Below, one piece after another: positions 1,101 to 53,522 of a DNA stretch of 64,000 nt. The stretch is from Arenicella chitinivorans. GTDB taxonomy: Bacteria; Pseudomonadota; Gammaproteobacteria; Arenicellales; Arenicellaceae. The number at the start of each line of letters is the position of its first letter. Position 1 is the first letter of the stretch. The DNA lies in contig NZ_BMXA01000002.1 in NCBI RefSeq assembly GCF_014651515.1, positions 1 to 64,000 of the forward strand, written 5' to 3'. The notes below the pieces were generated by a model, which did not search any database, was not told the origin of the DNA, and was given only the letters and a program-made list of their open reading frames with translations. The position numbers and the translations under genes are program-made.

Positions 1101-1231
1101 GTGGGTGTCCAACAAGAAACTCCCAACAAGAAACTCAAAGTGGGTGTCCAACAAGAAACTACATCCAACAATAAACTACACAACAAGAAACTCAAAGTGG
1201 GTGTCCAACAAGAAACTAACAAGAAACTAGT
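1101..1231 (+). repeat. GTGGGTGTCC / AACAAGAAACT repeat cluster upstream of the RAYT gene
   Basis: Three copies of GTGGGTGTCC (1101-1110, 1140-1149, 1197-1206) are each followed at once by AACAAGAAACT. That 11-mer recurs seven times in total, once with one change (AACAATAAACT). A partly matching copy follows at about 1234. The cluster lies 80 bp from the transposase start and fills most of the space to the next gene. It is probably the cognate repeat of the transposase. Confidence 0.75.
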
Positions 1232-1250
1232 TCAAGCAAGAAATCGACTA

Positions 1251-1278
1251 GTTAAGGTTCAGTTAATCTACGGTTAAG
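1251..1278 (+). promoter_or_regulatory. Three GTTAA half-sites at 11-bp spacing (PhoP/OmpR-type box)
   Basis: GTTAA begins at 1251, 1262 and 1273, an exact 11-bp period, which is the spacing of direct-repeat boxes bound by PhoP/OmpR-family regulators. A possible -10 element (TAGAGT) is at 1300-1305, and the MipA-like gene starts at 1346. An OmpR-family regulator is encoded 2 kb downstream, so control of this promoter by that regulator is a reasonable inference. Confidence 0.45.
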
Positions 1279-1345
1279 TTTTCATTCAGAGCACTGGCTT
1301 AGAGTAGCGAGAGTTAAATAACTCAACCTAAATCGGAACACTCTT

Positions 1346-2146
1346 ATGATTACTTTATTCAGATCAAAAACGACTGCCTTGATGGCTCTCTCGACGTTCA
1401 GCGCGGCCAGTGCATTTTCTCTTCCAAGCAACGCAGGCGATGCAATTGGCCCGGGTGACAGTAACAGCAAATGGGTTGTCGGTGCCACACTGGGTGCGTT
1501 CAGTAACCCCTACAGCGGTGAAGACGACGATGCTTGGATCTCTCCAAATTTGCGGTACAACGGCGAGCGTATTTTTTATCAAGACGGTAGCTTGAATGTA
1601 CACATCACGAGAAGCAATGGCTTTAGCGCGGGATTGAAATTTGCGCTGGACGCCGGTTTCTTGCTCGATAGCGACGACTATAAGAAGAATGAGAAGCTAG
1701 CCGGTCTAAATGAACGTGATGGCACAATTCTTGGCGGTATTTATGTGAATCATGATACTGATCTAGGCCGCCTGAGTTTTAATGTACTCACAGACGCCGG
1801 TAACGAGCACGATGGACGATCGGCGCTAATTAAGTATACGTTTGACCTAAAGGCTGGTGACTGGAACATCAATCCCGAGCTTGGTGCGCAGTGGTTGAGT
1901 GCAGACTACGTGAATCATTACGTCGGCGTCAGTGAGAGCGAAGCAACGACTACTCGGCCCGAGTTTAGTGCAGACGATACCTTTGTTGCGTTTGCTGGAA
2001 TTCGCGCTCGTTATGAGTTCACTGAAAATTGGGATATCAACGTTGAAACTGGCGTCAGCAAGCTCGGTTCTGAGTTCAAAGACAGCCCCATACTCGATGA
2101 GGACGTGGTGTACCAAGCGTCAATTGGCATTAACTATAACTTCTAA
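1346..2146 (+). CDS. MipA/OmpV family outer membrane protein
   Basis: A 266-residue predicted beta-barrel. An N-terminal signal peptide (about residues 1-30, ending near SNAGD) is followed by alternating amphipathic strands, and the chain ends in phenylalanine (INYNF), as outer membrane barrels usually do. Spaced WVVGATLGAF, NLRYNGERIFY and a late GIRARYEFTENW stretch match the MipA/OmpV layout. The family includes scaffold proteins for murein enzymes and porin-like proteins, so the exact role is unknown. It is the first gene of an envelope locus that also encodes lipoproteins and a two-component system. An 11-bp-spaced GTTAA triplet lies upstream. Confidence 0.85.
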   Translation: MITLFRSKTTALMALSTFSAASAFSLPSNAGDAIGPGDSNSKWVVGATLGAFSNPYSGEDDDAWISPNLRYNGERIFYQDGSLNVHITRSNGFSAGLKFALDAGFLLDSDDYKKNEKLAGLNERDGTILGGIYVNHDTDLGRLSFNVLTDAGNEHDGRSALIKYTFDLKAGDWNINPELGAQWLSADYVNHYVGVSESEATTTRPEFSADDTFVAFAGIRARYEFTENWDINVETGVSKLGSEFKDSPILDEDVVYQASIGINYNF

Positions 2147-2183
2147 TCAAATCAACGCGATAGATTTACCCTCGGAGTTCATA

Positions 2184-2540
2184 ATGAAGAATTTAACTAC
2201 CCTCTTTATCTTACTAACTTTAAGCGCATGTGCCTCAACCGTGCTGGAACCCGCGGCCTCAATGGTAAGACTTACCCATACGGAACCCAACCCCGAAAAC
2301 TGTCAATTCCTAGGTGACATTACAGGTGCTGAAGACAATATATTCATCTCCAGTGAAGAACTCGAGACTGGCGCTAGACACGATCTTAAAAATAAAGCCT
2401 ACGCCATGGGCGGCAATGTGGTTTATTTGCTCACACAACGGTCAGCACAATCAGGAATCTTCTATGATGACTTTGGCAGCCAAGATCAAACCAGCGTGGT
2501 TTTATCGGGCAATGTATACAAATGCTCAAGACAGTCTTGA
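2184..2540 (+). CDS. DUF4156 family lipoprotein
   Basis: A 118-residue protein that starts at an ATG 11 bp downstream of a CGGAG ribosome site and 37 bp after the MipA-like gene. The signal peptide ends in a lipobox (LSAC, Cys about residue 18), so it should be lipid-anchored. The body has the DUF4156 pattern: a short GDITG stretch, a central ...ARHDLKNKAYAMGGN... segment and a C-terminal Cys. DUF4156 proteins are small envelope lipoproteins without assigned function. It is probably co-transcribed with the preceding barrel gene. Confidence 0.75.
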   Translation: MKNLTTLFILLTLSACASTVLEPAASMVRLTHTEPNPENCQFLGDITGAEDNIFISSEELETGARHDLKNKAYAMGGNVVYLLTQRSAQSGIFYDDFGSQDQTSVVLSGNVYKCSRQS

Positions 2541-2717
2541 AGAATGGTCATATCAGCTTGATACCCAGTCTTAGTGAGCGCTAGATGTAGTGGGGTTGTC
2601 TGTGGTTATTGGAATTGAAACGCTAGTTTATATAGAGCTTGCATCAATGTTACGATGCATCTGGTCACCGTTACTAAAGCAACCCCATTAACATCTTTAT
2701 TTCTAAAGGTATAAACG

Positions 2718-3308
2718 TTGAAACGTCGCTTCCTTATTATTCTGCTGCTCTGTAGTGGAGCCGCAGATGCCGAAGATGCGGAAAAGCAAAACAAGGCTGA
2801 TCAAGGCCCAAAAAAGGGCGATGAAATATGGTTAGAGGAGAGAATTGCACCGACCACAACTTGGGTTGAAAGTTTGGTAAAGCCTTTGACAAGCTGGATG
2901 GAGCGACAAATTAACGAGCCCGAGCAGAAGGATGAGCAACAAGATGGGGGTCAGTCAGCTCAACCGCAGAACACCGTTGAGCCAGACCAAGCAAAGCGAG
3001 TTCACCCTGTAGGCGAAGTCGCACTAATTGGAATTGACCAAGCGGGTGAATTTGCCCGACAGCACATCGCCGGCGATGTGTTGTACGTCAAGCTGATAAC
3101 GAAGAGCAACAGATACCGCGTGAAACTCATTTCTAGAATCGGTGAGATCCACATTATCTATGTTGATGCCGTGTCGGGCAATATTGTTTCACGTGACAAA
3201 ACAGGGCTCGACCAAGCAACTCAAAAAACAATAAGCCAATCGGCGCCAGAACAGGGAGATTCGCCTGGATCTGAGTTAGGCGGTGAGAGTGAGGAGGACA
3301 ATCCATAA
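2718..3308 (+). CDS. PepSY-domain periplasmic protein
   Basis: A 196-residue protein starting at TTG, with AAAGG about 8 bp upstream and a signal peptide (RRFLIILLLCSGAADA). A low-complexity, acidic and Gln-rich linker (about residues 60-95) precedes one PepSY domain (about residues 100-155). That domain has the usual helix (DQAGEFARQHIAG) and a strand ending YVDAVSGNIV. PepSY domains bind or inhibit partner proteins in the envelope and are often encoded beside sensor kinases. Its stop codon overlaps the start of the regulator gene by one base, so the three genes form a tight operon. It may be a ligand or modulator for the kinase. Confidence 0.8.
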   Translation: MKRRFLIILLLCSGAADAEDAEKQNKADQGPKKGDEIWLEERIAPTTTWVESLVKPLTSWMERQINEPEQKDEQQDGGQSAQPQNTVEPDQAKRVHPVGEVALIGIDQAGEFARQHIAGDVLYVKLITKSNRYRVKLISRIGEIHIIYVDAVSGNIVSRDKTGLDQATQKTISQSAPEQGDSPGSELGGESEEDNP

Positions 3309-3985
3309 TGCGCATTTTGGTAGTCGAGGACGATCAAGAAATACAGGGGCAATTGCAACGAAAACTTGGCCATTTGGGCTATCAAGTCAGCGTGGCCGAA
3401 GATGGCGTTGAGGCGCTGTTTTACCTCTCAGAATATGAAATAGCATTGGCGATCGTCGATCTAGGTCTTCCGCGCATGGATGGCATGCAACTTATCCAAC
3501 AACTTCGCACAAACAACCATGATCTGCCGGTACTTATCCTAACTGCTCGAACTGGGTGGAAGTCCAAAGTCGAGGGCCTGAATTCCGGTGCGGATGATTA
3601 TCTAGTCAAGCCTTTTCAGTTTGAGGAGTTAGTGGCCCGCGTCAGTGCGTTGTTGCGCCGATCAACCGGCCGCACAAAGAGCAAGCTGCAGATTGGACCA
3701 ATATGCCTGGACTTAAGCAGTCAAATAATTTGTGTCAACAATGAGGAAGTGAACCTTACTGCATTCGAGTTCAAGGTGCTCGAGTACTTTATGATGAACC
3801 CCCAGAAAATCACCAGTAAGTTCACGCTCATCGATCAGCTGTATGGTGTGGATGAAGAAACGGAAAGCAATGTCATCGAAGTCATTATCGCAAGGCTACG
3901 TAAAAAGCTAGACCCAAGCGGTACATTACAACCCATCGAAACCTTGCGTGGACGCGGGTATCGATTCAGGCAACTCGCGGATTGA
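3308..3985 (+). CDS. OmpR/PhoP-family response regulator
   Basis: A 225-residue regulator. The receiver domain (1-118) has the acidic pair D8/D9, phospho-acceptor D51 in IVDLGLP, the LTAR switch region and the conserved lysine in DYLVKPF. A winged-helix DNA-binding domain (about 128-222) ends in the typical LRGRGYRF. The ATG overlaps the stop of the PepSY gene (TAATG). The sensor kinase gene follows 13 bp later. It is most like PhoP/QseB regulators, which bind 11-bp direct repeats, and such an array precedes the MipA-like gene. Confidence 0.93.
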   Translation: MRILVVEDDQEIQGQLQRKLGHLGYQVSVAEDGVEALFYLSEYEIALAIVDLGLPRMDGMQLIQQLRTNNHDLPVLILTARTGWKSKVEGLNSGADDYLVKPFQFEELVARVSALLRRSTGRTKSKLQIGPICLDLSSQIICVNNEEVNLTAFEFKVLEYFMMNPQKITSKFTLIDQLYGVDEETESNVIEVIIARLRKKLDPSGTLQPIETLRGRGYRFRQLAD

Positions 3986-3998
3986 ATCGACGGTCTTG

Positions 3999-5474
3999 AT
4001 GAACATGATTCAAACAAAGACACCGCGTCATTCACAAATAACAACCAAGCGGTCTTTGGGTTGGTTGTCGAACACTGCGTCCTCGTTTGCAAAGCTCTCG
4101 CTGACTAAGCGTATGTTTGTTCTGACTGCACTGATACTGGTCGTCTTCTTATGTACAACGGCGTTAATGCTGCGCGCCGCATTTTCGATCAGTCTCGAGA
4201 ATGTTATTCAAGAGAAACTCAGGTTGCATACTTATCAACTGTTGTCCTCTGGCAATAGCGACGATGGCGCAATGCGTTTGCCAGCTCGAATTACCGAACC
4301 ACGATTTAACCAAACGCGCGGAGACCTTCTTGCCTTTGTTAAACGGCTGGCCGACGACAATCAGCAATATGAGGTCTGGCGCAGTGTGTCGGCGATGGAA
4401 AAGCAATTTTCGTTTCCAGCGCCAGACGGTGGTCAATGGTACTTTGGGCGGGCGCGAGGGGGCGATGGCACAGAGTATTATGTGTCTAGTTACAACACCA
4501 CTTGGTCAAATCGTGACGGTGTTAAAACCAAGTACATTTTCACTGTGATGGAAGACTTCAGATATTATGAAGACGAGCTGTCAAAGTATCGAACCATCAT
4601 CGCAGCAGGTTTGCTCGCTTTCGGTCTGATATTTCTGTTGCTTCAGACTCTTATTCTGCGCGTCGGCCTTGGCCCTGTCAGAAAAATGGCGGCGGACGTA
4701 GAGAGTATGAGCACGGGTCAGGCTCGCTCGCTAGCAGGCAACTATCCTAGGGAATTAATACCACTGACCATGAATCTGAATCAACTTATCGAAAATGAGC
4801 GACATCAACGCGAACGTTACCGAGAGCGTATGGCAGATTTGTCTCATGGTTTAAAGACACCGCTCTCAGTACTCAAGGGACTGGGGTCTGATATCGACGA
4901 TGACGGGCAGCCTATCTCGCGAGTAAAATTGCTCGAAATTCTCACCAAACAAGTGGCTAGAATGACGAAGCTTGTTGAGTATCAACTTCAGCGCGCTATA
5001 CCCAGTGGTGCTCCTACTGTGGTCTCGAAAATAGCGGTGGCGAATAGCGCCACCGAAATCATTTCGGCGTTGAAAAAAGTGTATGCACAAAAGACCATTC
5101 TAGCGGAATTGGAAATAGAGACAGGGCTGTCTTTCTACGGTGACGAAAACGATCTTTTGGAAATGATTGGCAACCTTTTAGACAATGCGTTTAAACACAG
5201 CGAGCACAGGGTGCGTCTGACGGCGTTTAAAACGACCATCCAAAGCGGCCAGTCAGTATTGGACTTTATTGTTGAAGATGATGGCAGTGGGGTTCCTGAA
5301 GCGAATCGTTCGGCGATTTTAGAACGTGGGGTCCAGTTGGACTCCAGTGGCGAGGGGCAGGGGTTTGGACTGTCGATCGTGGCTGATATTGTTAATAGTT
5401 ATCGGGGCTCGCTTAGCGTAAAAGAATCCAACATGGGTGGCGCCCTATTTCAAATAACTATGCCAACCTTTTGA
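3999..5474 (+). CDS. PhoQ-like sensor histidine kinase
   Basis: A 491-residue inner-membrane kinase. The first transmembrane helix (about 38-60) is followed by a periplasmic sensor segment of about 140 residues, a second helix (TIIAAGLLAFGLIFLLLQTLIL, split here only by description), a HAMP linker, a HisKA domain with the phospho-accepting histidine in DLSHGLKTPL (about residue 282) and an HATPase domain (GNLLDNAFKHS, EDDGSGVP, GFGLSIV). I chose the ATG at 3999, just after the regulator stop; an earlier in-frame start would overlap the regulator. It is the partner of the preceding regulator. The sensed signal is unknown; PhoQ relatives sense cations or peptides. Confidence 0.9.
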   Translation: MNMIQTKTPRHSQITTKRSLGWLSNTASSFAKLSLTKRMFVLTALILVVFLCTTALMLRAAFSISLENVIQEKLRLHTYQLLSSGNSDDGAMRLPARITEPRFNQTRGDLLAFVKRLADDNQQYEVWRSVSAMEKQFSFPAPDGGQWYFGRARGGDGTEYYVSSYNTTWSNRDGVKTKYIFTVMEDFRYYEDELSKYRTIIAAGLLAFGLIFLLLQTLILRVGLGPVRKMAADVESMSTGQARSLAGNYPRELIPLTMNLNQLIENERHQRERYRERMADLSHGLKTPLSVLKGLGSDIDDDGQPISRVKLLEILTKQVARMTKLVEYQLQRAIPSGAPTVVSKIAVANSATEIISALKKVYAQKTILAELEIETGLSFYGDENDLLEMIGNLLDNAFKHSEHRVRLTAFKTTIQSGQSVLDFIVEDDGSGVPEANRSAILERGVQLDSSGEGQGFGLSIVADIVNSYRGSLSVKESNMGGALFQITMPTF

Positions 5475-5491
5475 TGAGTAGAGATAAAGAT

Positions 5492-5815
5492 ATGTGTAAT
5501 AAAGAGAATACTCTCCTTAGAAAAATAACCCTGAGCGTGCTGTTGACGACGTTTATCACCGCGTGCTCCACAGTGACTATTCGACCTAATGGGGGAGATA
5601 AAGACAATTCACCTCCCGACTACCTCGACAGTAAGCCGTTTTACTTCGGCGGGCCGATTGGCAAACATAAAGTCGATGTCAATGAAGCGTGCGAAGGCAG
5701 TGACGTCACGCAGATGCAGACAGTTACCACGTCTTCTGATTGGTTCCTTTCGTTGCTGACGCTCGGTATTTATACCCCTAGAACAGCGAAAGTATGGTGC
5801 AAGGAGGGGCAATGA
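5492..5815 (+). CDS. Bor/Iss-family lipoprotein
   Basis: A 107-residue lipoprotein. The signal peptide ends in the lipobox ITAC, and the mature part carries the Bor pattern: FYFGGPIGKHKVDVNEAC, then a tail that ends LLTLGIYTPRTAKVWC. Bor and Iss were first known from lambdoid phages and colicin plasmids, but chromosomal relatives are common small envelope lipoproteins. GAGA precedes the chosen ATG at 5492; an ATG at 5474 that overlaps the kinase stop (TGATG) is an alternative start. It lies in the same operon as the kinase, and the next lipoprotein gene overlaps its stop. Confidence 0.8.
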   Translation: MCNKENTLLRKITLSVLLTTFITACSTVTIRPNGGDKDNSPPDYLDSKPFYFGGPIGKHKVDVNEACEGSDVTQMQTVTTSSDWFLSLLTLGIYTPRTAKVWCKEGQ

Positions 5816-6195
5816 AAATGCGACCGTTTATTGCTTCTAACCACCGCAAGTCAACAGCAGTATTTGTCGCATTCGCATTGTGCGTACTGTCAGGGTGCAG
5901 CACAATTGAGTTTGTTCAACACGAGCAATCGGTAGAAAGTAAAAGCGTCAATCGCTGGCACCATTCCACCCTTAACGGCATGGTTGAGATTAGCAAGCCA
6001 CTCAACATTGAATCCATATGCGGAAAAAGAGCATGGACGACCGTTACCACTGAGTTCACGTTACTCAACGCTTTACCTGTCGTTCTGGTGCCCAGCACTT
6101 CTTTGGTTTCTTTCTACAGCGCATGGACCAATAAGGTCAACTGTTATGAAGTACCAATTGGCGACTATGAGCAAGCGGAGTCGCTAACCCCTTAA
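5812..6195 (+). CDS. Small lipoprotein, last gene of the two-component operon
   Basis: A 127-residue lipoprotein. AAGGAGG precedes an ATG that overlaps the Bor-type gene stop (ATGA). The signal peptide ends LSGC. The mature part has two further cysteines (ESICGK and NKVNCYEV) with a Trp and Thr-rich strand between them, loosely like the Bor fold, so it may be a diverged duplicate of its neighbour. I do not recognise a named family. Context suggests an envelope role controlled by the same two-component system. Confidence 0.7.
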   Translation: MKMRPFIASNHRKSTAVFVAFALCVLSGCSTIEFVQHEQSVESKSVNRWHHSTLNGMVEISKPLNIESICGKRAWTTVTTEFTLLNALPVVLVPSTSLVSFYSAWTNKVNCYEVPIGDYEQAESLTP

Positions 6196-6655
6196 CATGT
6201 GCGAAGGCGTCTCTAAGCCTCCTATCGAGACTTGAGGTGCCTCCATGGTCAGGGTCTTACTTTTCGCCTGTCCAACCATGCTGAGAATTTGGAGGGAGTT
6301 TTCTCAAAAAATGTGCCACCATAACTTTTTACATATATTCCCTTCAGGCACAAATCATTGAGCTAGTGCAGGGAAAGGTGAATCTATTTCGAGAAGGAAA
6401 AATAGAGGAAGAACAGGACACTCACAGCCTAAGGAAATTAATAATTAGGATGGGTGTCCAAAAGTTGTTACAAAAGTTGGTCATCGAGTATGCATGTTGT
6501 CATCGAATGATTGGCTTAATTGGTAAAAACTCGTTATACAGTCGGCAAAAAAGAATCTTAACCACGATTGATTCAGTAGCGTTTAGGTGGCGTCTGAGTC
6601 GATTTTTATCTGTGAATTGACTGGTTTTCAGCGCAGGGAGACTGCGTGCGCGTAA
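6196..6655. other. Intergenic stretch with a GGGTGTCC motif and short duplication
   Basis: No convincing gene is present; an 84-codon open frame at 6366-6620 has no ribosome site and no recognisable content. GGGTGTCC is at 6452-6459. It is followed at once by AAAAGTTGTTAC and then AAAAGTTGGTC, a near-tandem 12-bp duplication of the kind seen at other copies of the motif. Confidence 0.5.
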
Positions 6656-7621
6656 TCATAATTTCGTGTTACGGACGCACTTCACTCCGCTATTGAAATA
6701 ACCAGTTTTAGGTACAGAGTAAACGGTACTTCCATTCGAATCATTTGGACTAATCTGATTGAATCGTACTGCCCAAACCTCAGGCGTGTTGGTAACATTG
6801 GTGGTTGTCGTCAGCAGTTGTTCTCTATCTCTATAATCGTTATGGTATTCAAAGATGGCGTTTATCTCAAATTCTGTATGTGCTCGAACCTCTACCAAGC
6901 TAACTAGCTCCTTCAACGCCGGTACTCGCCAATCGCGAAACCCTCCCAGGTCTAGCTCATTGCAATAATTGGTGGCAGCAATTAAATTGCCGGGTCCTGA
7001 GCCAAAGGTGGCTTTCTCCCACATCAAACCAAATGAGAGATCTTCAATGGTGCCGTCATTGTGATCGATGAAAGTTGATCCACTTGAGTTTCCGGCGCGT
7101 ACACATCGAACGAATCTACTGTGGGTTCTCATTGCGTTACGTACTTGACCGTTCCAAACATCGATCGTCCGAGCTAAAGAACTATTAACAGGGTCGATGG
7201 TGTTCGACCAATAATCCCGGCTGGAATTTGGGGACGGAAAAGCTTGTACACTTAGGGCAGGAGCGAACCTGGTGTAGTCAGTGATGCCGATTAACTCTTT
7301 AATCGACGGTAAACGCCAATCGTTATGGTCTCGTAGGTTTAACTGGCGGCAATATTGATTCGCGTCCGACCAAGTACGATCAAATAGCGACTGCTCATGC
7401 CGTTGCCATTCTAGACCTGTTATCAGATCAACGGCCGTTTCTGAATGAATATAGTAGTCAGACCTAGGGGCTTCATCAGATTTTATTGGCGCATACACAG
7501 CGGGTGTACTGTCATCGAACAGAGGGATCACGACAACGTTGTTCTTGGCGTTCACAGTGCTTGCAAAACACAACAGTGTCAACATAGCAAGACAAGGTAA
7601 TCTCATCTTGAGAAACAGCAT
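6656..7621 (-). CDS. Secreted DUF1566 (Lcl C-terminal domain) protein, two repeats
   Basis: A 321-residue protein with a signal peptide (ending near VNA). It carries two copies of the DUF1566/Lcl_C module. Copy one (about 60-175) has TGLEWQ, the WSDANQYCRQL segment, DWRLPSIKELIGI and RFVRCVRAG. Copy two (about 185-320) has FGLMWEK, CNEL, DWRVPALKELVSLVE and GVKCVRN. The module is found in secreted and surface proteins of many proteobacteria and resembles fibrinogen/C-type lectin-like folds; its ligand is unknown. The gene is alone, opposite to its neighbours, and flanked by non-coding repeats. An ATG five codons in is an alternative start. Confidence 0.8.
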   Translation of the reverse strand: MLFLKMRLPCLAMLTLLCFASTVNAKNNVVVIPLFDDSTPAVYAPIKSDEAPRSDYYIHSETAVDLITGLEWQRHEQSLFDRTWSDANQYCRQLNLRDHNDWRLPSIKELIGITDYTRFAPALSVQAFPSPNSSRDYWSNTIDPVNSSLARTIDVWNGQVRNAMRTHSRFVRCVRAGNSSGSTFIDHNDGTIEDLSFGLMWEKATFGSGPGNLIAATNYCNELDLGGFRDWRVPALKELVSLVEVRAHTEFEINAIFEYHNDYRDREQLLTTTTNVTNTPEVWAVRFNQISPNDSNGSTVYSVPKTGYFNSGVKCVRNTKL

Positions 7622-7751
7622 AAGCAGGTTCCGTCTTAATCAAACATGCCTCCAGCATAACAATTAAAAATCTAATTTCACTCAGTGTGAATACCTATTT
7701 TTCAGCGAGGCATATTTAGCAGGGTGGCATGAGAAATCGGGTTTAGACGCT

Positions 7752-7981
7752 ATTCAAAGATCACGGTACCTGACTTTTCGTCGACTCTGGTTCGGTAACT
7801 AACGCCAACACAAATTCTAGTAATGGGAAGTTGCCAGTGGGTGTCCATCTTTTGGTGCATCTTTTGATTCAAAGATCACGGTAACTGACTTTTTGTCGAC
7901 TCTGGTTCGGCAACTAACGCCAACACAAATCCTAGTAATGGGAAGTCGCCAGTGGGTGTCCATTTTTTTGATGCATTTTTT
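7752..7981 (+). repeat. 115-bp tandem duplication containing GTGGGTGTCC
   Basis: Two direct copies (7752-7866 and 7867-7981) with few differences. Each carries GTGGGTGTCC near its end (7837-7846 and 7952-7961), followed by its own smaller duplication: CATCTTTTG twice in copy one, CATTTTTTTG twice in copy two. The repeat occupies the gap upstream of the large hybrid sensor gene and contains no gene. Confidence 0.85.
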
Positions 7982-8065
7982 TGTTCCTTATATTTTGCAA
8001 GCACTCAAATAACGCGCATACAATGACACCTGCAATTTGCGTGATTTCCCATTAGAGGCCAGTTG

Positions 8066-13378: not shown

Positions 13379-13392
13379 ACCTTGCTTTAGGT

Positions 13393-13421
13393 AATCGGTT
13401 TGCCATCGCGGCAAACCGGTT
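13393..13421 (+). terminator. Hairpin after the FG-GAP gene
   Basis: CGGTTTGCC and GGCAAACCG form a perfect 9-bp stem around a 5-base loop, 15 bp after the stop codon. The downstream T-run is weak (TTATTCT). Confidence 0.6.
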
Positions 13422-13596
13422 ATTCTAAAAACGGTGAGTAGTACTCCAGGGTAGGGTAAAGTGGCATTATCTTAGGTGATAGAGCATTTCCCTAGTCCTA
13501 TATAGTTATTTCATTGATTCGAAAAAACATTCTCACTAGGGTTTCTTCATTAGCAAAGATAATCTGGCCAAATTGCGCTAATTTCTAGCCACTTAG

Positions 13597-13637
13597 AGTC
13601 AACCACCTTGATGAGTCAACCACCTTGATGGGTGTCC
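13597..13637 (+). repeat. 17-bp perfect tandem duplication abutting GGGTGTCC
   Basis: AGTCAACCACCTTGATG occurs at 13597-13613 and again at 13614-13630. The second copy runs straight into GGGTGTCC (13630-13637). Here the duplication lies on the 5' side of the motif; at the other loci it lies on the 3' side. The rest of 13422-13795 holds no gene. Confidence 0.75.
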
Positions 13638-13795
13638 AGCTAGGGTATTTAACCATGGCGCAATAAAGATTTATGAGCGTTTAGGAGCCAACATCGATAT
13701 CAAAGGCCTTTTCAGGTGGGATGTGGCATCGTAGGCTGAACGCTGTCGCTTCCTCGGAGCGCTCCGGTTATCGGCGTAACCTCACTGGTGAAAAT

Positions 13796-14326
13796 ATGGA
13801 ACAGATAATAAAAAGTTTACTTGAAAAAACGCCTGATTGCCTCACTGGATTTAAGGTATCCGTTTCCGATATCAAGCTACCAAGAAGTTGGAATACGGGA
13901 CTGTTGTTCACGACCAAGCAGTTGTCTTGCAAGTGTGGCAATCAAGAACTTGAGTTGAACACTAACCAGCAAGTTCGAGTAAGTGGCTTTTTCAAAAAAA
14001 GGGAGAAAACGGAACTTTTCCCACCAGTTAAAGTCAGTTGTCCTAACTGCGGATACGCCGCCACAATATTTGATCCCCAAATCCATGGTTGGAATGGCCA
14101 AATTGAGGATCACTCTTGCGAGTCTGAGAATAGCAATCTATCTCCACACCCTGAAAGCCCAGCAAAGGTTTTCGCCAACTATTCCTATCAGGGCGTAGAA
14201 AACTACGAAGGTCTAATAGCGGATGGTGTTGCCAACCCCGAGGATTATTTCGATACCTTCACGGTATTAATAGTCGAGCCAAAAACTGGTAACGTCGTTG
14301 AGGTTTTGTCTAGTGAGTGTGCCTAG
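13796..14326 (+). CDS. Uncharacterised protein with zinc-ribbon-like cysteine pairs
   Basis: A 176-residue cytosolic protein. The pair SCKCG (CxC) and the later CPNCG (CxxC) could form a zinc ribbon around residues 45-85, with an EDHSCES segment near 105. The C-terminal half (YSYQGVENYEGLIADGV...) has no metal motif. I do not recognise the family. The ATG at 13796 follows GGTGA; an earlier in-frame start at 13721 would lie in a stretch without coding character. It is the first of a series of short plus-strand genes with attC-like sequence behind them, so it is probably a captured cassette. Confidence 0.6.
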   Translation: MEQIIKSLLEKTPDCLTGFKVSVSDIKLPRSWNTGLLFTTKQLSCKCGNQELELNTNQQVRVSGFFKKREKTELFPPVKVSCPNCGYAATIFDPQIHGWNGQIEDHSCESENSNLSPHPESPAKVFANYSYQGVENYEGLIADGVANPEDYFDTFTVLIVEPKTGNVVEVLSSECA

Positions 14327-14329
14327 TAG

Positions 14330-14424
14330 GGCTAACATGCAAAGGCACGAGGAGACCGCAAAAAGACCCGCACATGGACTCTTTAAAATTACGTTCTGTT
14401 CGCCTTTGCTTTTGACATTATAGG
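14330..14424 (+). other. attC-like imperfect palindrome after a cassette-like gene
   Basis: GGCTAAC begins four bases after the stop codon and matches RYYYAAC at six of seven positions. GCAAAGGC (14339-14346) pairs perfectly with GCCTTTGC (14402-14409), and CATTATAGG closes the outer arm imperfectly. Length and placement fit an integron attC site, but the right core (TTATAGG) is poor. Confidence 0.4.
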
Positions 14425-14431
14425 TATCGTG

Positions 14432-14728
14432 ATGAATCGTAAAGTACCCTTGTGGTTATTCCTACTTTCACTTGTATTAGTATTTACGGGTTTTGGGCTA
14501 TGGGGTAAATCGAACATCGATAGCTATGATCGTGAATACGGCTTGCATGCTCGAGATTACTACTCCAAAGTTAGTGTCTTGGAACATTTAAATCGAAACG
14601 AAGTAGAAGAAGCAAAGAAAATTTTGAAGGAAGAAACAGAAGCAATCGGCATGGCTATCGCCGTGTGTCTAATGAATCGTTGTTCCTTAGAGGTTGAAAA
14701 AGTTCGAGATGAGTATAGAAACCGGTAA
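14432..14728 (+). CDS. Small single-pass membrane protein, unknown family
   Basis: A 98-residue protein: one strong N-terminal membrane helix (VPLWLFLLSLVLVFTGFGLW) and a charged, helical C-terminal part with an EVEEAKKILKEETEAIG segment and two cysteines (AVCLMNRC). It could be an anchored periplasmic domain. ATG at 14432 is preferred over a GTG one codon earlier. No family recognised. It ends inside the left core of the next attC-like palindrome. Confidence 0.55.
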   Translation: MNRKVPLWLFLLSLVLVFTGFGLWGKSNIDSYDREYGLHARDYYSKVSVLEHLNRNEVEEAKKILKEETEAIGMAIAVCLMNRCSLEVEKVRDEYRNR

Positions 14729-14800
14729 CAGGGCAAGCCACCTTTACGCGCGGTGCTCGCTGGGACGAAGTAAACGGCGCCCGCATTTGCGGTGTTATAC
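14724..14800 (+). other. attC-like palindrome
   Basis: GGTAACA overlaps the stop codon of the preceding gene and GTTATAC closes the element at 14794-14800; TAACAGGGC and GCCC...TGTTA are complementary at the ends. An inner CCGCATTTGCGG hairpin precedes the right core. A similar CCGCAAAGCGGTGTTACGC lies at about 18477-18495, before the TerB-like gene. Confidence 0.35.
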
Positions 14801-14821
14801 AAATAGGTAGGCAGGTAGAGT

Positions 14822-15298
14822 ATGAAGTTAGATAAATTAATTTCTAAAGTGTTCTTGCCAGATGATGAAAGTTGGCTCCGCCATGCAAATCCCTGGTCGA
14901 TCTGGACCCGATTTGCAACGCTTCCCTTTATGGTTCTCAGCATTTGGTCACGAGTGTGGATCGGGTGGTACTGTGTCATTCCAATATCTATTCTGATATT
15001 TTGGATTTGGATAAACCCGACTTTGTTTGGAAAGCCGACCAACTATAAGAGCTGGGGTGCTAAGGCAGTACTGGGTGAGCGTCTGTTTATGAAAAGGAAT
15101 GAGGTACCGATACCCCAAGGCCACCAGAACATGATAGTGATATTAAATGTACTGCAAACTATCGGAGGAGTAATACTTGTTTATGGTGTCTGGAAATTAG
15201 ATATTTATCTTACAATTCATGGTACAACCTTCGTGTATTTGGCGAAAATGTGGTTCTTGGATCGTATGGTGTGGTTATACGAAGATTCCGTAACCTAA
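14822..15298 (+). CDS. DUF6653-like membrane protein
   Basis: A 158-residue protein with about four membrane helices (two at 35-65, two at 105-140). The opening LRHANPWSIWTRFATLP followed by NPTLFGKPTNYKSWGAKAVLGE, with PIPQGH later, fits the DUF6653 group as I remember it. Function unknown. GGTAGAG lies just before the ATG. It sits alone between two non-coding segments, as integron cassettes do. Confidence 0.6.
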   Translation: MKLDKLISKVFLPDDESWLRHANPWSIWTRFATLPFMVLSIWSRVWIGWYCVIPISILIFWIWINPTLFGKPTNYKSWGAKAVLGERLFMKRNEVPIPQGHQNMIVILNVLQTIGGVILVYGVWKLDIYLTIHGTTFVYLAKMWFLDRMVWLYEDSVT

Positions 15299-15400
15299 AA
15301 TACATAAGAAGTTGTCAATTAGAATGGACGCAACCGTTGTTATGCCACTTTGTTCGGCCTTCTATTTCGGCTGATCAACGTGCAAAAAAAGTGAGTTGGA

Positions 15401-15823
15401 ATGATTGAATTAGTTCTTGTAGTTAATGCAGTTTGGTTTGGTTTGGGCTTTCATCTATTTGCCTTTCGCAGAATGATCTTTGCGAAGATCATTGTGCCGA
15501 AGGAGTATCGAGAAACGCCAGTTTTCGAAACCTTGGCTGCGACGGGGCCATTTTTGGGCGGGTTCAATTTCGCTTTCTGCGTTCTAAGCGTAATTTTATT
15601 GTTCAATGTCTCTCTATTTCCGGAACTAGAACAACGAATTATTCTCTTTGCTGTAATCGCTATAGCGCATGGATCGCAATTTGTGGCCAACCTTCCAATT
15701 GCATTAGAGAATAGAAAAGGCAAAGGAGTATGGCAGATAAAAGGCTTAATGCGGTTTATCTTCATAACGGATTTCTCTTTGATGCTCACCAATGCGGTAG
15801 TGGTAGTGATCTATGCTTGGTGA
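15401..15823 (+). CDS. Four-helix membrane protein, unknown
   Basis: A 140-residue hydrophobic protein with four predicted helices (about 2-20, 50-70, 80-100, 118-138). A charged FRRMIFAKIIVPKEYRET segment follows the first helix, and HGSQFVANLP lies in the third. Small proteins of this shape are common in gene cassettes. Its TGA overlaps a possible ATG (TGATG) of the GFA-family gene, but that gene more likely starts later at its own ribosome site. Confidence 0.55.
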   Translation: MIELVLVVNAVWFGLGFHLFAFRRMIFAKIIVPKEYRETPVFETLAATGPFLGGFNFAFCVLSVILLFNVSLFPELEQRIILFAVIAIAHGSQFVANLPIALENRKGKGVWQIKGLMRFIFITDFSLMLTNAVVVVIYAW

Positions 15824-15873
15824 TGCCCGACTGTCCCATAACTACCCATTACGCGACTAGGCGAGGAGTAATT

Positions 15874-16284
15874 TTGCTAACTGGAAAATGTAACTGCGGT
15901 TCTGTTGAGTACAATGCTGATACGGATGTATCAGACGTTTTTGTTTGCCATTGCTCTATCTGCCGTTCTTTAACTGGCAGTGGTGGTATTGCCGTTGTTA
16001 TTGTTAAAAACACAGATTTTCGTTGGCTTAAAGGCCAAGACTCAATAACGTATTGGTCTAAGCCTGAGCATGACTGGCACGCAAACTTTTGTAAGGTATG
16101 CGGTTCTTCACTGCCGGGGAAAAATGATGAACATCAAATGTATATTCCGGTCGGCACGCTTACGTCTGGTCACGAAAATTTAAAAGTAGCGCACAATTTG
16201 TATGTCGCATCAAAAGCATCTTGGCAGATAATTGGTGATTCAGGCATTCAGCATCCCGAGGGTTATGGTAGTAAAAATGCCTAA
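15874..16284 (+). CDS. GFA-family (glutathione-dependent formaldehyde-activating-like) zinc protein
   Basis: A 136-residue protein with the GFA zinc signature: GKCNCGSVEY at the start, CHCSICR in the middle (about residue 30) and CKVCGSSL near residue 75. These six or seven cysteines bind two zinc ions in the family; substrates of most members are unknown. A strong GGCGAGGAG precedes TTG at 15874, which I take as the start; an ATG at 15823 would add a stretch with no similarity. GFA genes are frequent in integron cassettes, which fits the setting. Confidence 0.75.
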   Translation: MLTGKCNCGSVEYNADTDVSDVFVCHCSICRSLTGSGGIAVVIVKNTDFRWLKGQDSITYWSKPEHDWHANFCKVCGSSLPGKNDEHQMYIPVGTLTSGHENLKVAHNLYVASKASWQIIGDSGIQHPEGYGSKNA

Positions 16285-16376
16285 TAAATTGCGCCAACAT
16301 CGTTCATGCCCTGAAAAACCAACCACCATGCAGTGCCCGTTTTTGCGGCGCTAGATTTACACCAAAGAGGTTACTA

Positions 16377-16859
16377 ATGAAATACCATTTAGCACAATTG
16401 AATATTGCTCGTTTTCGTCTACCTCAAGAACATCCAGATAATAAGGATTTTATTGACAATTTGGATAGAGTTAACGCTCTCGCTGAAACTCAAGAAGGCT
16501 TTGTTTGGCGCTTTACTGGCGAAGGTAATGACGCGATGGACGTTCAGGCTTTCGACGATCCGAATATCGCTTCCAATATGTCGTTATGGACTGACCTTAA
16601 CGCGCTTGGTGCTTTCGTTTACAGGAACAAAGAGCACAGAGAAATAATGCGTCGAAGGAGTTCTTGGTTTGATAAGATTGATTTCTACCTAGTTCTTTGG
16701 TGGGTTCAAGCGGGTCATATCCCTACCTTGGAAGAAGCAAAAGAGAGACTTGAATTGCTTTCAAAAGAGGGTCCGACTGAAAATGCATTTACTTTTAAGG
16801 AGCCTTTCCCATCACCCAATGAAAGTAAAGTCAGCCCGATTCTCGATGAGTGTGCTTAG
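16377..16859 (+). CDS. DUF3291 family protein
   Basis: A 160-residue protein of the DUF3291 type: YHLAQLNIARFR at the N terminus, then LDRVNALAETQEGFVWRF, a NMSLWTDLNALGAFVYR core with HREIMRRRSSWF, and a DFYLVLWWVQAGHIPTLEEAKERL end. The fold is a dimeric alpha-beta barrel like antibiotic monooxygenases; the reaction is unknown. RBS AGAGG lies 8 bp before the ATG. DUF3291 genes are well known passengers of chromosomal integrons. Confidence 0.85.
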   Translation: MKYHLAQLNIARFRLPQEHPDNKDFIDNLDRVNALAETQEGFVWRFTGEGNDAMDVQAFDDPNIASNMSLWTDLNALGAFVYRNKEHREIMRRRSSWFDKIDFYLVLWWVQAGHIPTLEEAKERLELLSKEGPTENAFTFKEPFPSPNESKVSPILDECA

Positions 16860-16951
16860 CACTCTAACAAACCAAATTGGCTTCGCCTTCAGCTCTGCGG
16901 GACGTTCACGTTTTCACTCTCCTAGGTTGGGCGCACCATGCGCAAGATAGT

Positions 16952-17293
16952 TTGAGAGTATTTATAAGCAATCTAACTTTAATGGTCTCATCACTAGGTT
17001 TAAGCGTTCTGTTGGTTATTTGGGGAATGTCTTTGAGCCAAGAGACGTCCGTGCTAACAATGCACGAATTAAGCATATCTGCGCCACAAGACATCCTAGG
17101 TTTAGGCTACTGGCCAATTTGGGCAATCATAGCGTCTTTCCAAATTGGCTTAATTATTCTAAGCGCTTTCAGAAAAGTGGCTTGGTCAAAATTATATTTG
17201 GGTTGCATTTTTATCTGTGCTGCTGCATTTGTAACCGCAACAGATTCATCTTTTAGCGAGTACGTTGTTTTAGAGGAAAAGGTATTAGGTTGA
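16952..17293 (+). CDS. Small membrane protein, unknown; start uncertain
   Basis: About 113 residues with three to four hydrophobic helices (MVSSLGLSVLLVIWGMS, WPIWAIIASFQIGLIILSAF, LYLGCIFICAAAFVTA). I put the start at the TTG of 16952, because the upstream bases 16862-16932 look like an attC-type element rather than coding sequence; an ATG at 16982 is the other candidate. No family recognised. Confidence 0.45.
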   Translation: MRVFISNLTLMVSSLGLSVLLVIWGMSLSQETSVLTMHELSISAPQDILGLGYWPIWAIIASFQIGLIILSAFRKVAWSKLYLGCIFICAAAFVTATDSSFSEYVVLEEKVLG

Positions 17294-17369
17294 GGTCAAA
17301 AGTAAATAGTAAGGCAAAACATAAACGCTTTTTTTGGGATGCGCTGTCCCTTAAAGTTACGGAGGACAT

Positions 17370-18353
17370 ATGTCAAAGACGTTAGAGGAGGTCGCAAATG
17401 ATCTTGTTGATCTACTTAATGGCGAAACAGATAAGCTAAAGAAAAAATACGATAAGAACGTTGTCGATGAATTAAACGAGATATTCACTGGAGACCCAAA
17501 GGCGCTTCAGAAAAAATACCAAAATGAAGCTTACGATAAATATGTTGAAAAGTTCTCTTCCTCCATTCCCTTGTGGAAGTTGAATGATAAAGAGTGGGTG
17601 CATTGTAGAAAGGAAGTTTGGCAGCGAATTATTGAAAGAGAGAAAGGGGAGCGTAATGATTTTGTCAAATCCTATTGGGAAGAAGCCGGCCGCTTCTTTC
17701 TAAGAGCGAAACCCAGAAAGAACGACTCAGTAATATATGTCTACCGGCGTATGGCATACACGCCGTTTTCATCTGTGGAAGAAATACGAGAGCTCTATAT
17801 GAACGAGCATGTTTCGCTGAGAAGAAATTTGCATGAACAACTCCTATCCTACGCATCTCGAACATACAGAGCCGTTCCTGAAGAGTTTTATCGGGTAAAA
17901 CTTATCGCTGATGCTTTGTATTGCAAGGAATATGTGGCAAAAAAATCCCCTATGGGACACGCAAATACACCCAAATTTTCGGTTTTTTATCCTCGAGATT
18001 TTATAATTCGTTATACAGGAGAAGTCAGAAAGTACCTTAATCGTTCTGATTCAACCCATCTTGAGAAACTCAGTCAAGTTCAGAATCTGCAATGGAATGG
18101 CCATGAAAGAAGCTTTGCGGAAGTCACTATCGATTATTTTCTGGGGAGTTTAGAATACGCAGTAAATAACAACACTGATGAATATGGTGGCGTGATCACT
18201 GAGACAGGCATTGAAGGAGTTAATCAAATGTGCGAACTGATTGAATCTTATAGTCCAGATATACACGATGAAAATCGAGATAAATATGTCGAAGTGGCAT
18301 GCAGTAGTATCCTGGAGAATGATGCGGTTAAGAAAGTTCGTGCAAGGGTGTGA
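17370..18353 (+). CDS. Uncharacterised 327-residue cytosolic protein
   Basis: A strong ACGGAGGACAT ribosome site precedes the ATG. The protein is charged and mostly helical, with no signal peptide or membrane helix. Visible features are a lysine-rich helical start (LNGETDKLKKKYDKN), a WKLNDKEWVHCRKEVWQRI segment (about 69-87), HEQLLSYASRTYRAVPEEF near 155 and a C-terminal CELIESYSPD part. I do not recognise a family and see no nuclease or kinase motif. It is one of the longer genes in the cassette-like run. Confidence 0.6.
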   Translation: MSKTLEEVANDLVDLLNGETDKLKKKYDKNVVDELNEIFTGDPKALQKKYQNEAYDKYVEKFSSSIPLWKLNDKEWVHCRKEVWQRIIEREKGERNDFVKSYWEEAGRFFLRAKPRKNDSVIYVYRRMAYTPFSSVEEIRELYMNEHVSLRRNLHEQLLSYASRTYRAVPEEFYRVKLIADALYCKEYVAKKSPMGHANTPKFSVFYPRDFIIRYTGEVRKYLNRSDSTHLEKLSQVQNLQWNGHERSFAEVTIDYFLGSLEYAVNNNTDEYGGVITETGIEGVNQMCELIESYSPDIHDENRDKYVEVACSSILENDAVKKVRARV

Positions 18354-18534
18354 CAAGACCATGAAATTTTCTTCCTACGGTCACCGGACGCTAATAGCCT
18401 AGCTACGTTTTATGCGTTTAGTGCCGAATACATGATTTCTATTTAGACACACAAAGTCACAGGCGCTCCTCGATTTCCGCAAAGCGGTGTTACGCGAATT
18501 TGGAAAGCGAATGATTTAAACAAAGGAGAAGTAA

Positions 18535-19488
18535 ATGGAAAACGTAGTTAAGATGGCTGGTAATTTTGCAGCGCACGCTATCTTGAGCGTATCTGACGGG
18601 GAAACGTTAATACCGATAGTTGGATTATTAGACGCTGAAGATCAACAGAGTATGAGAAGAATGGTAATGGGCTCTGTTGAGGCATTGGCTGCGGGTGAAC
18701 ACCTGCTAAACAATTTCACTCCAGAGTACAAAGGTGCCGCTTTTATTAAGGATGGATTGGTAACTTTAGAGACTGGAAAGACTGATTCGCTAATTGTAGA
18801 TATAAGGTTTAGCGATGATAGCGCAAAGAAAATTCAGTTTTTAATACCCTACAGAAATGCCAATCACGAGAAAGGCTTTGCAGTCCACAGATTAAAGATT
18901 TCTGAAGCCACAGGCTTTTCTCAAGATGAATTTAATTTGCTAGCCGATGCATTTTTTGATGGATTAGAGTCTCATCCTGAGGGAGGAAAAATATGGAACG
19001 AAAAATATGTAGACCAAGCAGGAGTTAGTACTGGGCATTACGGTGAAGAAAATACAGAATTTTCCAATGAAGATTTCGAAAAGCTAAAACAAGCTCCTTT
19101 TTTGATATTCTTTTTAGTTGCAGCAGCTGATGGCAGTATCGATAAAAAAGAAGTGAGAGAATTTATGGAAGTGCTTTCGAATCCAGAGATTTTGAACAAC
19201 CCACTTTTGAATAGAATAATTACGAATGTAATTAACCAGATACCGAGCGTAATTTCAGATATGGCCACTAAAGAAATAGACTATATTTCGGAACTAGCTC
19301 AATTAAAATTTATAGCAGATAGCAGTCTACCTGATGATCAAGCAAATCATTTCAAAATTTCTTTGCTGCTTCTGGGTAAGAAAATTGCTGAAGCTTCCGG
19401 TGGATTTTTTGGCTTTGGAAGTAAGATTAGTAAAGAAGAAAAAGGTGCGCTGGCAGCAATTGCTGTGTGTTTAGGTATCAGGGCTTAA
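18535..19488 (+). CDS. Protein with C-terminal TerB-like domain
   Basis: A 317-residue soluble protein. The N-terminal half (1-150) is alpha-beta and unassigned. The C-terminal half begins PFLIFFLVAAADGSIDKKE (about residue 182), the signature of the TerB-like helical, metal-binding fold, and ends FGFGSKISKEEKGALAAIAVCLG, a second helix of the same kind. TerB-like domains occur in tellurite-resistance and stress or phage-defence systems, but no ter genes are adjacent. AAAGGAGAAG precedes the ATG. Its role here is unknown. Confidence 0.65.
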   Translation: MENVVKMAGNFAAHAILSVSDGETLIPIVGLLDAEDQQSMRRMVMGSVEALAAGEHLLNNFTPEYKGAAFIKDGLVTLETGKTDSLIVDIRFSDDSAKKIQFLIPYRNANHEKGFAVHRLKISEATGFSQDEFNLLADAFFDGLESHPEGGKIWNEKYVDQAGVSTGHYGEENTEFSNEDFEKLKQAPFLIFFLVAAADGSIDKKEVREFMEVLSNPEILNNPLLNRIITNVINQIPSVISDMATKEIDYISELAQLKFIADSSLPDDQANHFKISLLLLGKKIAEASGGFFGFGSKISKEEKGALAAIAVCLGIRA

Positions 19489-19694
19489 GCAATGCACGAC
19501 GGATGCCGGTTTTGAATTCCGCATAACTTTAAGTTAGTTCTGGATTGGACCAATGGTTGGGACACACAGCCATCAGAGTGCAAAATTTGGCAGAAAAGAT
19601 TGTAATGCAAACTTAACAAGCACGGTCCATTTAGATGTTTCGCAAGTACGATATCGTTAATTAATAAATTCTAAGAAACATAAAACGAGGCCTG

Positions 19695-20297
19695 ATGATG
19701 GAAATTTCACTAAAACAAAACCTTCGTATCATAGCTCTCCTGCTGTTTTTGGTTGTGACCACGCAGGCTGTGTACACGGCCTTGCATGTGGTTGCGAATG
19801 ACGTCCCACGTCGGTGGCTCTGGGGCTTGGAGGCTCTGATTTTTGTATTGCTAGCGGCCTTTGCGGGCTCTATGTTGGTGCAAATAAAAAACTACGCACT
19901 GGGCTTTGCCGCGGTGTTTGCCAGTGCGGTATTGAACGTTGTGCAAGTCGGTGTTGGTTTGACTCAATTTGGTCCATTTTTCGAGGCAGCCAAGAGTGCA
20001 GAAGCATTTGCTCCCGCTGCAAGTGCCGTAGTTGCTTATTCGTTCTTTATTTATAACGCCGCTAAAGTGTTGCTGGGTTTATCGGCTGTTGTATTTGGCC
20101 TGGTGGTTGCCAAGCAGGGCGCAAACTTCCTGGGCAAGCTAACCGCTTTGGTTGGTCTTGTCGCGATCGTGGCCAATACGATCGCCATGATGTTTGGTCG
20201 TATTGACGCCGTACCGTCTGGCGCGACTGGTGTGCTCGCGACCCTATTATTGGCAGTTTGTGTGCTTAAGTTAGAAGCCGAAGACAAAGCAACTTAA
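19695..20297 (+). CDS. Six-helix membrane protein, unknown
   Basis: A 200-residue, alanine- and valine-rich membrane protein with about six helices. ACGAGG lies before the ATG; the next ATG is one codon later. Its codon use is richer in G and C than that of the neighbouring short genes, so it may come from a different source or belong to the resident chromosome. No family recognised. Confidence 0.6.
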   Translation: MMEISLKQNLRIIALLLFLVVTTQAVYTALHVVANDVPRRWLWGLEALIFVLLAAFAGSMLVQIKNYALGFAAVFASAVLNVVQVGVGLTQFGPFFEAAKSAEAFAPAASAVVAYSFFIYNAAKVLLGLSAVVFGLVVAKQGANFLGKLTALVGLVAIVANTIAMMFGRIDAVPSGATGVLATLLLAVCVLKLEAEDKAT

Positions 20298-20474
20298 TTG
20301 TTGAGTACGCCGAAAAAATAAGGCAACTAGGGCGTCCAGGGTTCAGATAATTACTGATTCGAGACGCCTTATATCTTGGAAAAAAATCTCCTTGATTCGG
20401 GTTCAGAACAATAAGGACGCGATTGCGAGCGTGCACGGTTGTTATCAACGTCAGCTGGATTGAACTCCAACAGC

Positions 20475-20500
20475 GATTCTTCGCTGCGCTCAGAATGACA
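20475..20500. repeat. Dispersed palindromic repeat
   Basis: GATTCTTCGCTGCGCTCAGA, then ATGACA: ATTCT and AGAAT form the stem. The sequence matches a repeat type that turns up in many unrelated proteobacterial genomes. It is the only notable element in the 300-bp gap 20298-20597. Confidence 0.55.
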
Positions 20501-20597
20501 AGGATATTTGTGGCGAGTAGAACGGAAATTGTTTTTCGTTTCCTTCCAGCGACCTTGGTTTGATTCGAATGGTTAATAACTAGCTCGTGCTGCCCAG

Positions 20598-20768
20598 CTA
20601 AAACCAATTTTTAATGGTGCACCACCAATCGCACGAGGGGGTATCATCTTCCACTTCGGTATCGGTGTTATCGTCTTCACTCGCTAACACCGCGTTCGAA
20701 CTAAGCGAACCAATAGTTACTGACATAGTTAACAACGCACTTAGTAGCAAAAGTTTGAGGTTTTTCAT
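20598..20768 (-). CDS. Small secreted acidic peptide ending in a Cys/Trp-rich tail
   Basis: A 56-residue product. GAGAAA precedes the ATG at 20768. The signal peptide (about 1-30) is followed by a probable cleavage after VLA. The mature peptide would be about 26 residues: an acidic half (SEDDNTDTEVEDD) and a C-terminal CDWWCTIKNWF. It is the only minus-strand gene among the cassette-like plus-strand genes. The family is unknown. An extracellular peptide, bacteriocin-like product or periplasmic micro-protein are all possible. Confidence 0.55.
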   Translation of the reverse strand: MKNLKLLLLSALLTMSVTIGSLSSNAVLASEDDNTDTEVEDDTPSCDWWCTIKNWF

Positions 20769-20905
20769 TATTTTCTCGGACCTAGGGGCATTTCCATGTT
20801 TAGATAGTAGACCTAACATAACAAATGTGGCCGGCTATAGGCTAAATATAAGCGTCTAAGTAATCGCTTTGCCTGACTTTGGCGTTCAATATCGTGGCAT
20901 CCGAT

Positions 20906-20941
20906 GGGTGTCCAACTTTAGTTTGTTAACTTTAGTTTGTT
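20906..20941 (+). repeat. GGGTGTCC followed by a perfect 14-bp tandem duplication
   Basis: GGGTGTCC at 20906-20913, then AACTTTAGTTTGTT at 20914-20927 and again at 20928-20941. It lies in the 303-bp gap 20769-21071, together with an attC-like element. Confidence 0.75.
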
Positions 20942-20969
20942 AGAATCGATACTTGAAAATTGAGAAAGT

Positions 20970-21064: not shown

Positions 21065-21071
21065 ATATCTT

Positions 21072-21362: not shown

Positions 21363-21364
21363 GT

Positions 21365-21464: not shown

Positions 21465-21539
21465 GTGAGGAATAAGGTTTTGGCTCAGCTCTGTTTCTTT
21501 CTCCCCAATTTCTATTTGCGACACTAGCCAATTTTCCAG

Positions 21540-53500: not shown

Positions 53501-53522
53501 TTGAAATTCAATTTATTTGAGA

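Follow-up and report, generated by a model that had tools for sequence, protein, structure and literature searches.

Duplications anchored at the ends of a putative TIRYT-like transposase element in Arenicella chitinivorans and other, mostly gammaproteobacterial, genomes

In the IS200/IS605 elements, of which IS608 and ISDra2 are examples, both cuts made by the HUH Y1 transposase fall on one strand of the DNA. These elements possess subterminal hairpins (PMC6006769). The REP sequences of the REP/RAYT system are hairpins too, with GT[AG]G as their foot, and the E. coli enzyme of that system, TnpAREP, cleaves single-stranded DNA to give a 3'-OH and a 5'-phosphotyrosine that is resolved by strand transfer (PMC8266576). 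TIRYT elements, or TIRtrons, consist of a Y1 gene between terminal inverted repeats and not REP hairpins, and some of them share a short conserved core, GGGGWSAS (Di Nocera et al. 2013, PMC3733652); 20 of 26 TIRYT elements have been put in subclass 2.1 of the TnpA_Y1 transposases (PMC6006769). For subclasses 2.1 and 2.3, the survey by Quentin et al. (2018, PMC6006769) found no REP-like sequences by automatic or manual search. The present work concerns a complete TnpA_Y1 transposase gene, and an 8-nucleotide motif, GGGTGTCC, clustered beside it, in a stretch of 64,000 nucleotides of Arenicella chitinivorans (positions 1 to 64,000 of contig NZ_BMXA01000002.1, hereafter the window), which together appear to represent a family of mobile elements that bear an inverted terminal signal and accumulate tandem duplications at their ends.

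Eleven copies of GGGTGTCC are found in the window, against 0.97 expected and a maximum of 5 in 100 shuffles, starting at 1103, 1142, 1199, 6452, 7839, 7954, 13630, 20906 and 51849 on the forward strand and at 51540 and 52750 on the reverse strand. The original prediction, made from the letters of the window alone, had counted 12 copies; it was right as to where they lie, with zero copies at 25-49.5 kb and 55-64 kb, and right in placing a complete HUH transposase beside the densest cluster, the gene adjoining the motifs at 1103-1206. All six of the tandem duplications that it named beside the motif are present, five of them on the 3' side. Across the whole genome GGGTGTCC occurs 92 times and its reversed control 35 times. 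A purine-purine-T prefix (RRT) precedes 46 of the copies, the reversed pattern never occurring, and 21 of these 46, with the prefixes AGT, GAT, GGT or AAT, have an adjacent exact direct repeat of at least 8 nt 3' of the motif. Such a repeat adjoins only one of the 46 copies with any other prefix, which are about as many as the reversed control, and is found at 1.9% of 20,000 random 43-mers from the same loci, an element-rich pool that makes this baseline if anything high. The coupling of motif and duplication that had been predicted is real and far beyond chance, and belongs to one half of the genome copies.

The setting of the motif was examined around genes for relatives of the window transposase, in a first set comprising the best 80 of at least 573 confirmed relatives (records mostly gammaproteobacterial by title) and a second set of 140 genes, from which 2 genes common to the first were removed and which overlaps it in genera and some genomes. 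In the first set TGGGTGTC is the most frequent outward-facing 8-mer, present upstream of 42 of 75 genes and downstream of 26 of 78. In the second it faces outward upstream of 73 of 140 and downstream of 31 of 136, as compared with 3 and 3 inward-facing occurrences and with 2 upstream and 0 downstream for its reversed control. The looser pattern TGG[ACG]TG[TG]C faces outward upstream of 165 of 215 and downstream of 147 of 214 of the 220 genes of both sets (inward, 12 and 7) and flanks both sides of 131 of 209 genes; its variants were picked after the second set had been seen, so that counting the exact word is the cleaner test. The distance from motif to gene is mostly 46-115 nt on the upstream side, which fits the spacing at window position 1103, and downstream ends lie mostly 200-400 nt past the gene.

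How far the element extends beyond the motif can be read from comparisons in which the first T of the motif is position 0. Between copies at different places (60 pairs, 31 loci) identity exceeds one half through position 16 and is 0.23 at position 17, and at both ends the consensus, drawn from 205 upstream and 211 downstream ends, loses information at about position 17; around the core consensus TGG[G]TG[T]C, the duplicated terminal word shows a weak consensus as well. The final nine letters of an element's two ends agree at 4.54 of 9 positions, against 3.40 for shuffled partners (132 pairs; largest of 200 shuffles, 3.80). Because the two ends match beyond shuffles and identity between copies runs through the word, the duplicated word belongs to the element, and the earlier view that such words are merely copied local sequence, with only the motif shared, is not supported. 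Nor is the motif free-standing, as had been supposed. There is every likelihood that GGGTGTCC is the core of a terminal signal, approximately TTANRR-TGGGTGTC-Y-N8, facing outward at both ends, and it is equally probable that the whole is a mobile element, about 1.2 kb long, which encodes the HUH tyrosine transposase and ends about 9 nt beyond TGGGTGTC. The family occurs in many, mostly gammaproteobacterial, genomes: at an E-value of 1e-30, relatives of the transposase turn up in 68 of 197 genomes sampled from the order to which a Colwellia belongs and in 54 of 369 sampled from the class of the window.

The enzyme itself appears to fit TnpA_Y1 subclass 2.3, an assignment that rests on length, motifs and hosts, since the members described there are likewise of about 325 residues, with extra C-terminal domains and NHYH and YVDLNP motifs, exist as several diverged copies per genome and include Alteromonadales in their host range (PMC6006769). 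In the window protein YVDLNP occupies residues 189-194, and N76, H77, H79, Y189, N193 and P194 are invariant among 18 aligned proteins; the C-terminal part is conserved among relatives, one genome copy (L071) reads NHFH instead of NHYH, and translation likely starts at a conserved Met at residue 7. A structure predicted from 18 aligned relatives (predicted local distance difference test score, pLDDT, 74.3; predicted template modelling score, pTM, 0.76) points to an HUH Y1 fold: its best match in the PDB, and the sole one below 0.001, is 4er8 (E 2e-4), a tyrosine transposase associated with REP sequences, followed by ISDra2 and IS608 chains (E 0.02-0.1). A search of solved structures with the transposase sequence gave 0 matches, the window protein scores 20 bits with the Y1_Tnp profile, whose cut-off is 23, and four of four proteins score 39.5-44.6 bits with the NF047646 profile, whose cut-off is 80. 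In the plasmid-collection records H1-H13 the transposases, where annotated, are called 'transposase' or 'hypothetical protein'. The A. chitinivorans genome holds 15 matches to the window transposase, 7 of them near full length, among which type A copies (the window's own and those on contigs C1, C11, C6 and C2, the last near 1016 kb) and type B copies (on C9 and, with two in-frame TGA codons, on C12) can be told apart. The prefix before the motif is mostly AGT at type A ends and GAT at type B ends.

Tandem repeats follow many of the motifs in both sets. In the first they are found at 50 of 138 motifs, against 5.2% of 15,600 control positions, and in the second at 56 of 154 exact motifs, one of the 56 being a run of N, as well as at 68 of 182 variant motifs, against an 8-nt repeat at 5.1% of 8,400 random positions. 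When both sets and the window's genome are pooled, 3 of 526 ends being dropped as duplicate or N-containing, the terminal word is repeated at 190 of 523 ends, compared with a mean of 11.2 and a maximum of 18 in 40 rounds of shuffling; ends from one genome or from related species are not independent, and these counts are of ends and not of events. Ordinary replication slippage in AT-rich intergenic DNA, with the transposase not involved, would be at home in these AT-rich flanks, where the random frequency of 8-nt repeats is as just given, and a few arrays (L198, L291, L332) do resemble simple sequence. As a general explanation it is highly improbable, given that the shuffles preserve composition, that less AT-rich words such as CGGATTGCCCTCC (L137) and CTCCCAGGCCA (L247) are repeated too, and that the boundary of the repeats is fixed at the element end.

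This fixed boundary is best seen in the 182 duplicated ends that remain when those running off the stretch are omitted. Their outer repeat limit lies at positions 17-23 (middle 80%; median 19), or 9-15 nt past the motif, and its standard deviation is 3.6, against 7.2 under random placement and 5.5 in the lowest of 2,000 simulations; the inner start floats between -11 and 9 (10-90%). The same test centred inside the element (-45 to -25) finds repeats at 78-100 of 523 ends, as long units would give, and centred outside the element end at 43 and 28 of 523. Because the outer boundary falls at or just past the element end while the inner boundary floats, the duplications are inner-truncated copies of the element end, from 7 nt to 1.2 kb in length, stacked on that end. 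Selection might instead keep the arrays, by whatever route they were duplicated, as multiple binding sites, for instance in control of the transposase promoter upstream, and the five TGGGTGTC copies upstream of the gene at L131, with motif and terminal word identical and spacers different, are what it would lead one to expect. It is nonetheless rather improbable, as downstream ends and solitary ends are duplicated too, and the fixed outer boundary is not explained by selection alone.

At the upper end of the size range, locus L292 carries a 1,236-bp copy, then 3 nt, then a second copy that lacks 27 nt on its inner side. Both have the same terminal word, at which further copies spaced 50, 68 and 135 bp also finish, and long units and short ones seem to form a single series. 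Insertion itself is visible in two Pseudoalteromonas shioyasakiensis chromids, which have a common insertion (87.0% identity) between the genes for isocitrate dehydrogenase and acetolactate synthase. The motif, variants counted, is present in 6 and 2 copies at the upstream end and in 2 copies each downstream, and Pseudoalteromonas CF6-2 has the corresponding empty site, with the insertion absent. For two Colwellia insertions, a comparison of the joined flanks with 39 genomes gave no usable empty site. At L380, L381 and L390, all in Pseudoalteromonas, the insertion site stands directly after a terminator-like hairpin, as judged by eye, which could be a target preference.

The best overall explanation of these arrays, to which we assign a probability of roughly 0.45, is that the HUH enzyme cuts and joins DNA at the end of the element and that the inner joining is imprecise. 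Acting on single-stranded DNA, the transposase would cut at the end of the element; the element would then bear a free 3'-OH and the flank a 5'-phosphotyrosine, and a strand with the same 3'-OH, often just an end piece, would attack the phosphotyrosine to create an exact outer junction. The 5' side of the incoming strand would be joined imprecisely, often with extra bases, the inner junction being left to the host, and repeated rounds would yield nested arrays. One exact and one variable end are also the outcome of LINE 5' truncation and of one-ended transposition by Helitron and IS91 elements, which involve other enzymes and substrates and offer an analogy only. There is a preferred inner point, TGGGTG/TC (the slash marks the start), which begins 25 of 97 perfect tandems, against 5.3 simulated and a maximum of 14 in 500 runs of a simulation that presumes a uniform inner start, and this suggests that the enzyme sometimes makes that cut too. 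Nicking at TGGGTG/TC followed by extension and re-ligation was considered as the sole mechanism and rejected as such, since the position of the inner start varies and that of the outer end does not, even though the point is enriched. From the predicted nick at or beside the motif with local re-copying there survives a break beside the motif with re-copying or re-joining; the fixed point is some 9-15 nt 3' of the motif. Strand transfer as such is a tentative proposal, at a little under even odds.

Several observations weigh against cutting and joining by the transposase. In a rival explanation the transposase only nicks the end; the next replication fork would break at the nick, and host repair would let the broken end invade the sister copy further inward and be copied out again, with no need for end pieces to move. 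Nick repair by sister re-copying yields much the same product as strand transfer, including the anchored outer and floating inner boundary, and the whole-element tandem of L292 also speaks for it. Perfect tandems, which make up 97 of 182 junctions, are equally obtainable by host repair, and the unmatched bases between copies in the other 85, to which later mutation may contribute, agree with it. Overlaps of 4 nt between unit ends are commoner than simulated (7 of 90 against 1.7%), a small excess in favour of repair, and zero overlap is rarer (38 of 90 against 52%), so that some annealing or slippage may contribute; the junction overlap is otherwise near chance, which counts against repair, as does the enzymatic look of the preferred inner point. 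Further difficulties for the transposase reading are that 333 of 523 ends are without such a repeat, that in 78 of 209 gene copies one side or both are without a recognised motif, and that the median outer boundary, 11 nt past the motif, is about 2 nt outside the element homology. In addition, the motif at window position 13630 misfits the anchored-end rule, the filled sites of P. shioyasakiensis have extra flank bases relative to CF6-2, making their boundaries approximate, and eight stretches around sites in the A. chitinivorans genome, compared with 18 genomes, gave no empty site for any window copy. Host repair is a possibility to be taken seriously, at distinctly less than even odds.

The movement of end pieces was examined among 46 ends in the A. 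chitinivorans genome, of which 23 have upstream sequence in common with another end and 23 do not. Four of the latter match a type B end only over the last 23-32 nt or so, as judged by eye: C9:9401, about 8 kb from the nearest type B gene copy; C12:4124, about 1 kb from such a copy; C1:688, about 150 bp from another type B end; and C1:2670, which bounds a mini-element of roughly 140 bp on one side. The other 19, including those at window positions 6452, 13630 and 20906, have only prefix and motif in common. Such solitary ends without shared upstream sequence, which count against host repair, are suggestive of movement of end pieces and are not proof of it. The fuller proposal, that the outer end is the only one the enzyme makes on each strand and that end pieces as short as about 20-30 nt are mobile, stacking on the parent end and landing elsewhere, seems unlikely.

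Two further observations concern repeats in this genome. At C1:669931-670135 (L015, 1501-1705), about 3.4 kb from a type A transposase gene, two motif copies separated by about 200 bp enclose a minisatellite of GGATAGAGGGAGA-like units. On contigs C1, C2, C9, C11 and C12 motif copies or transposase genes are found within about 3 kb of the contig start, and given these positions the repeats may be the cause of assembly breaks.

The features of the window are collected in Table 1. The array that begins at 1109 is composed of a 14-nt unit at 1109 and 1123 and an 11-nt unit at 1207 and 1218, larger units bringing the motif again at 1142 and 1199. In the 115-bp duplication each copy has its own doubled word (CATCTTTTG in one and CATTTTTTTG in the other), the final copy of the word ending at 7983. 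The doubled 17-mer occupies 13596-13629, 5' of the motif; on the 3' side of this motif the word is unrepeated. Elsewhere in the window, a gene for a TPR protein at 53517-55019 contains about nine 126-bp coding tandem repeats, and the stretch 13721-21947, with small open reading frames on one strand, several without a Pfam match and others assigned to DUF6653, GFA and DUF3291, looks like a cassette-type stretch, possibly of integron origin.

Table 1. Transposase gene, element ends and associated repeats in the window.
Feature	Position	Strand	Basis
Complete TnpA_Y1 (HUH) transposase gene, 325 aa	62-1039	-	HUH motif NHYH, residues 76-79; Tyr189 in YVDLNP
Upstream outer end of transposase element: AGT, GGGTGTCC, AACAAGAAACT	1103-1121	+	Open reading frame start 64 nt off
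Nested tandem copies of element end	1109-1229	+	Repeat units located in sequence
Solitary end: GAT, GGGTGTCC, with CAAAAGTTG TTA CAAAAGTTG	6452-6479	+	Adjacent repeat
115-bp tandem duplication, motif in each copy (7839, 7954)	7752-7983	+	Repeats in sequence
17-mer doubled 5' of motif; exception to anchored-end rule	13596-13637	+	Repeats in sequence
Solitary end: GAT, GGGTGTCC, then AACTTTAGTTTGTT twice	20906-20942	+	Adjacent repeat
Outward motif next to transposase remnant 51633-51773 (minus)	51540-51547	-	Motif and protein match
Outward motif on opposite side of remnant 51633-51773; type B upstream end	51849-51856	+	Motif, end comparison
Type B downstream end near second transposase remnant 52988-53116 (minus)	52750-52757	-	Motif, protein match

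The outward motif on both sides of the gene gives this family the terminal inverted repeats of TIRYT elements, with which it also has in common a short conserved core, although the core here is TGGGTGTC and not GGGGWSAS; anchored tandem duplication is unreported in the portion of the TIRYT account (PMC3733652) used for comparison. With the REP/RAYT system it shares an HUH Y1 enzyme, its fold, and the possibility of ends away from the gene (PMC8266576), but REPs are hairpins, and among 12 element ends that were folded, z was below -2 in 2 and no hairpin was shared. A genome-wide REP-like family was likewise considered and rejected, as TGGGTGTC is without general excess over its reversed control in 15 gene-bearing genomes; a clear excess is seen in three of these (G043, G050, G054). 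The IS200/IS605 elements are alike in HUH Y1 chemistry and in the fold matches and differ in having both cuts on one strand and subterminal hairpins; here the same signal, inverted, stands at both ends. Where the survey of subclass 2.3 found no REP-like sequence (PMC6006769), the present analysis defines a terminal signal that faces outward and duplications anchored at the ends. No description of anchored end duplications or of these end signals was found in the open-licence literature searched, as judged by titles. From its sequences, the family is a TIRYT-like terminal-inverted-repeat relative of known Y1 elements, with apparently unreported behaviour at its ends.

A defined end signal makes cleavage by a subclass 2.3 transposase directly testable. 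In the anchored, inner-truncated copies a record of the junctions can be read, and it could help explain how Y1 enzymes spread short repeats, the dissemination of REPs having been called poorly understood (PMC8266576). The arrays illustrate a route by which new tandem repeats may arise, and if end pieces are indeed mobile, they would count among the smallest units that transpose and would give rise to such repeats.

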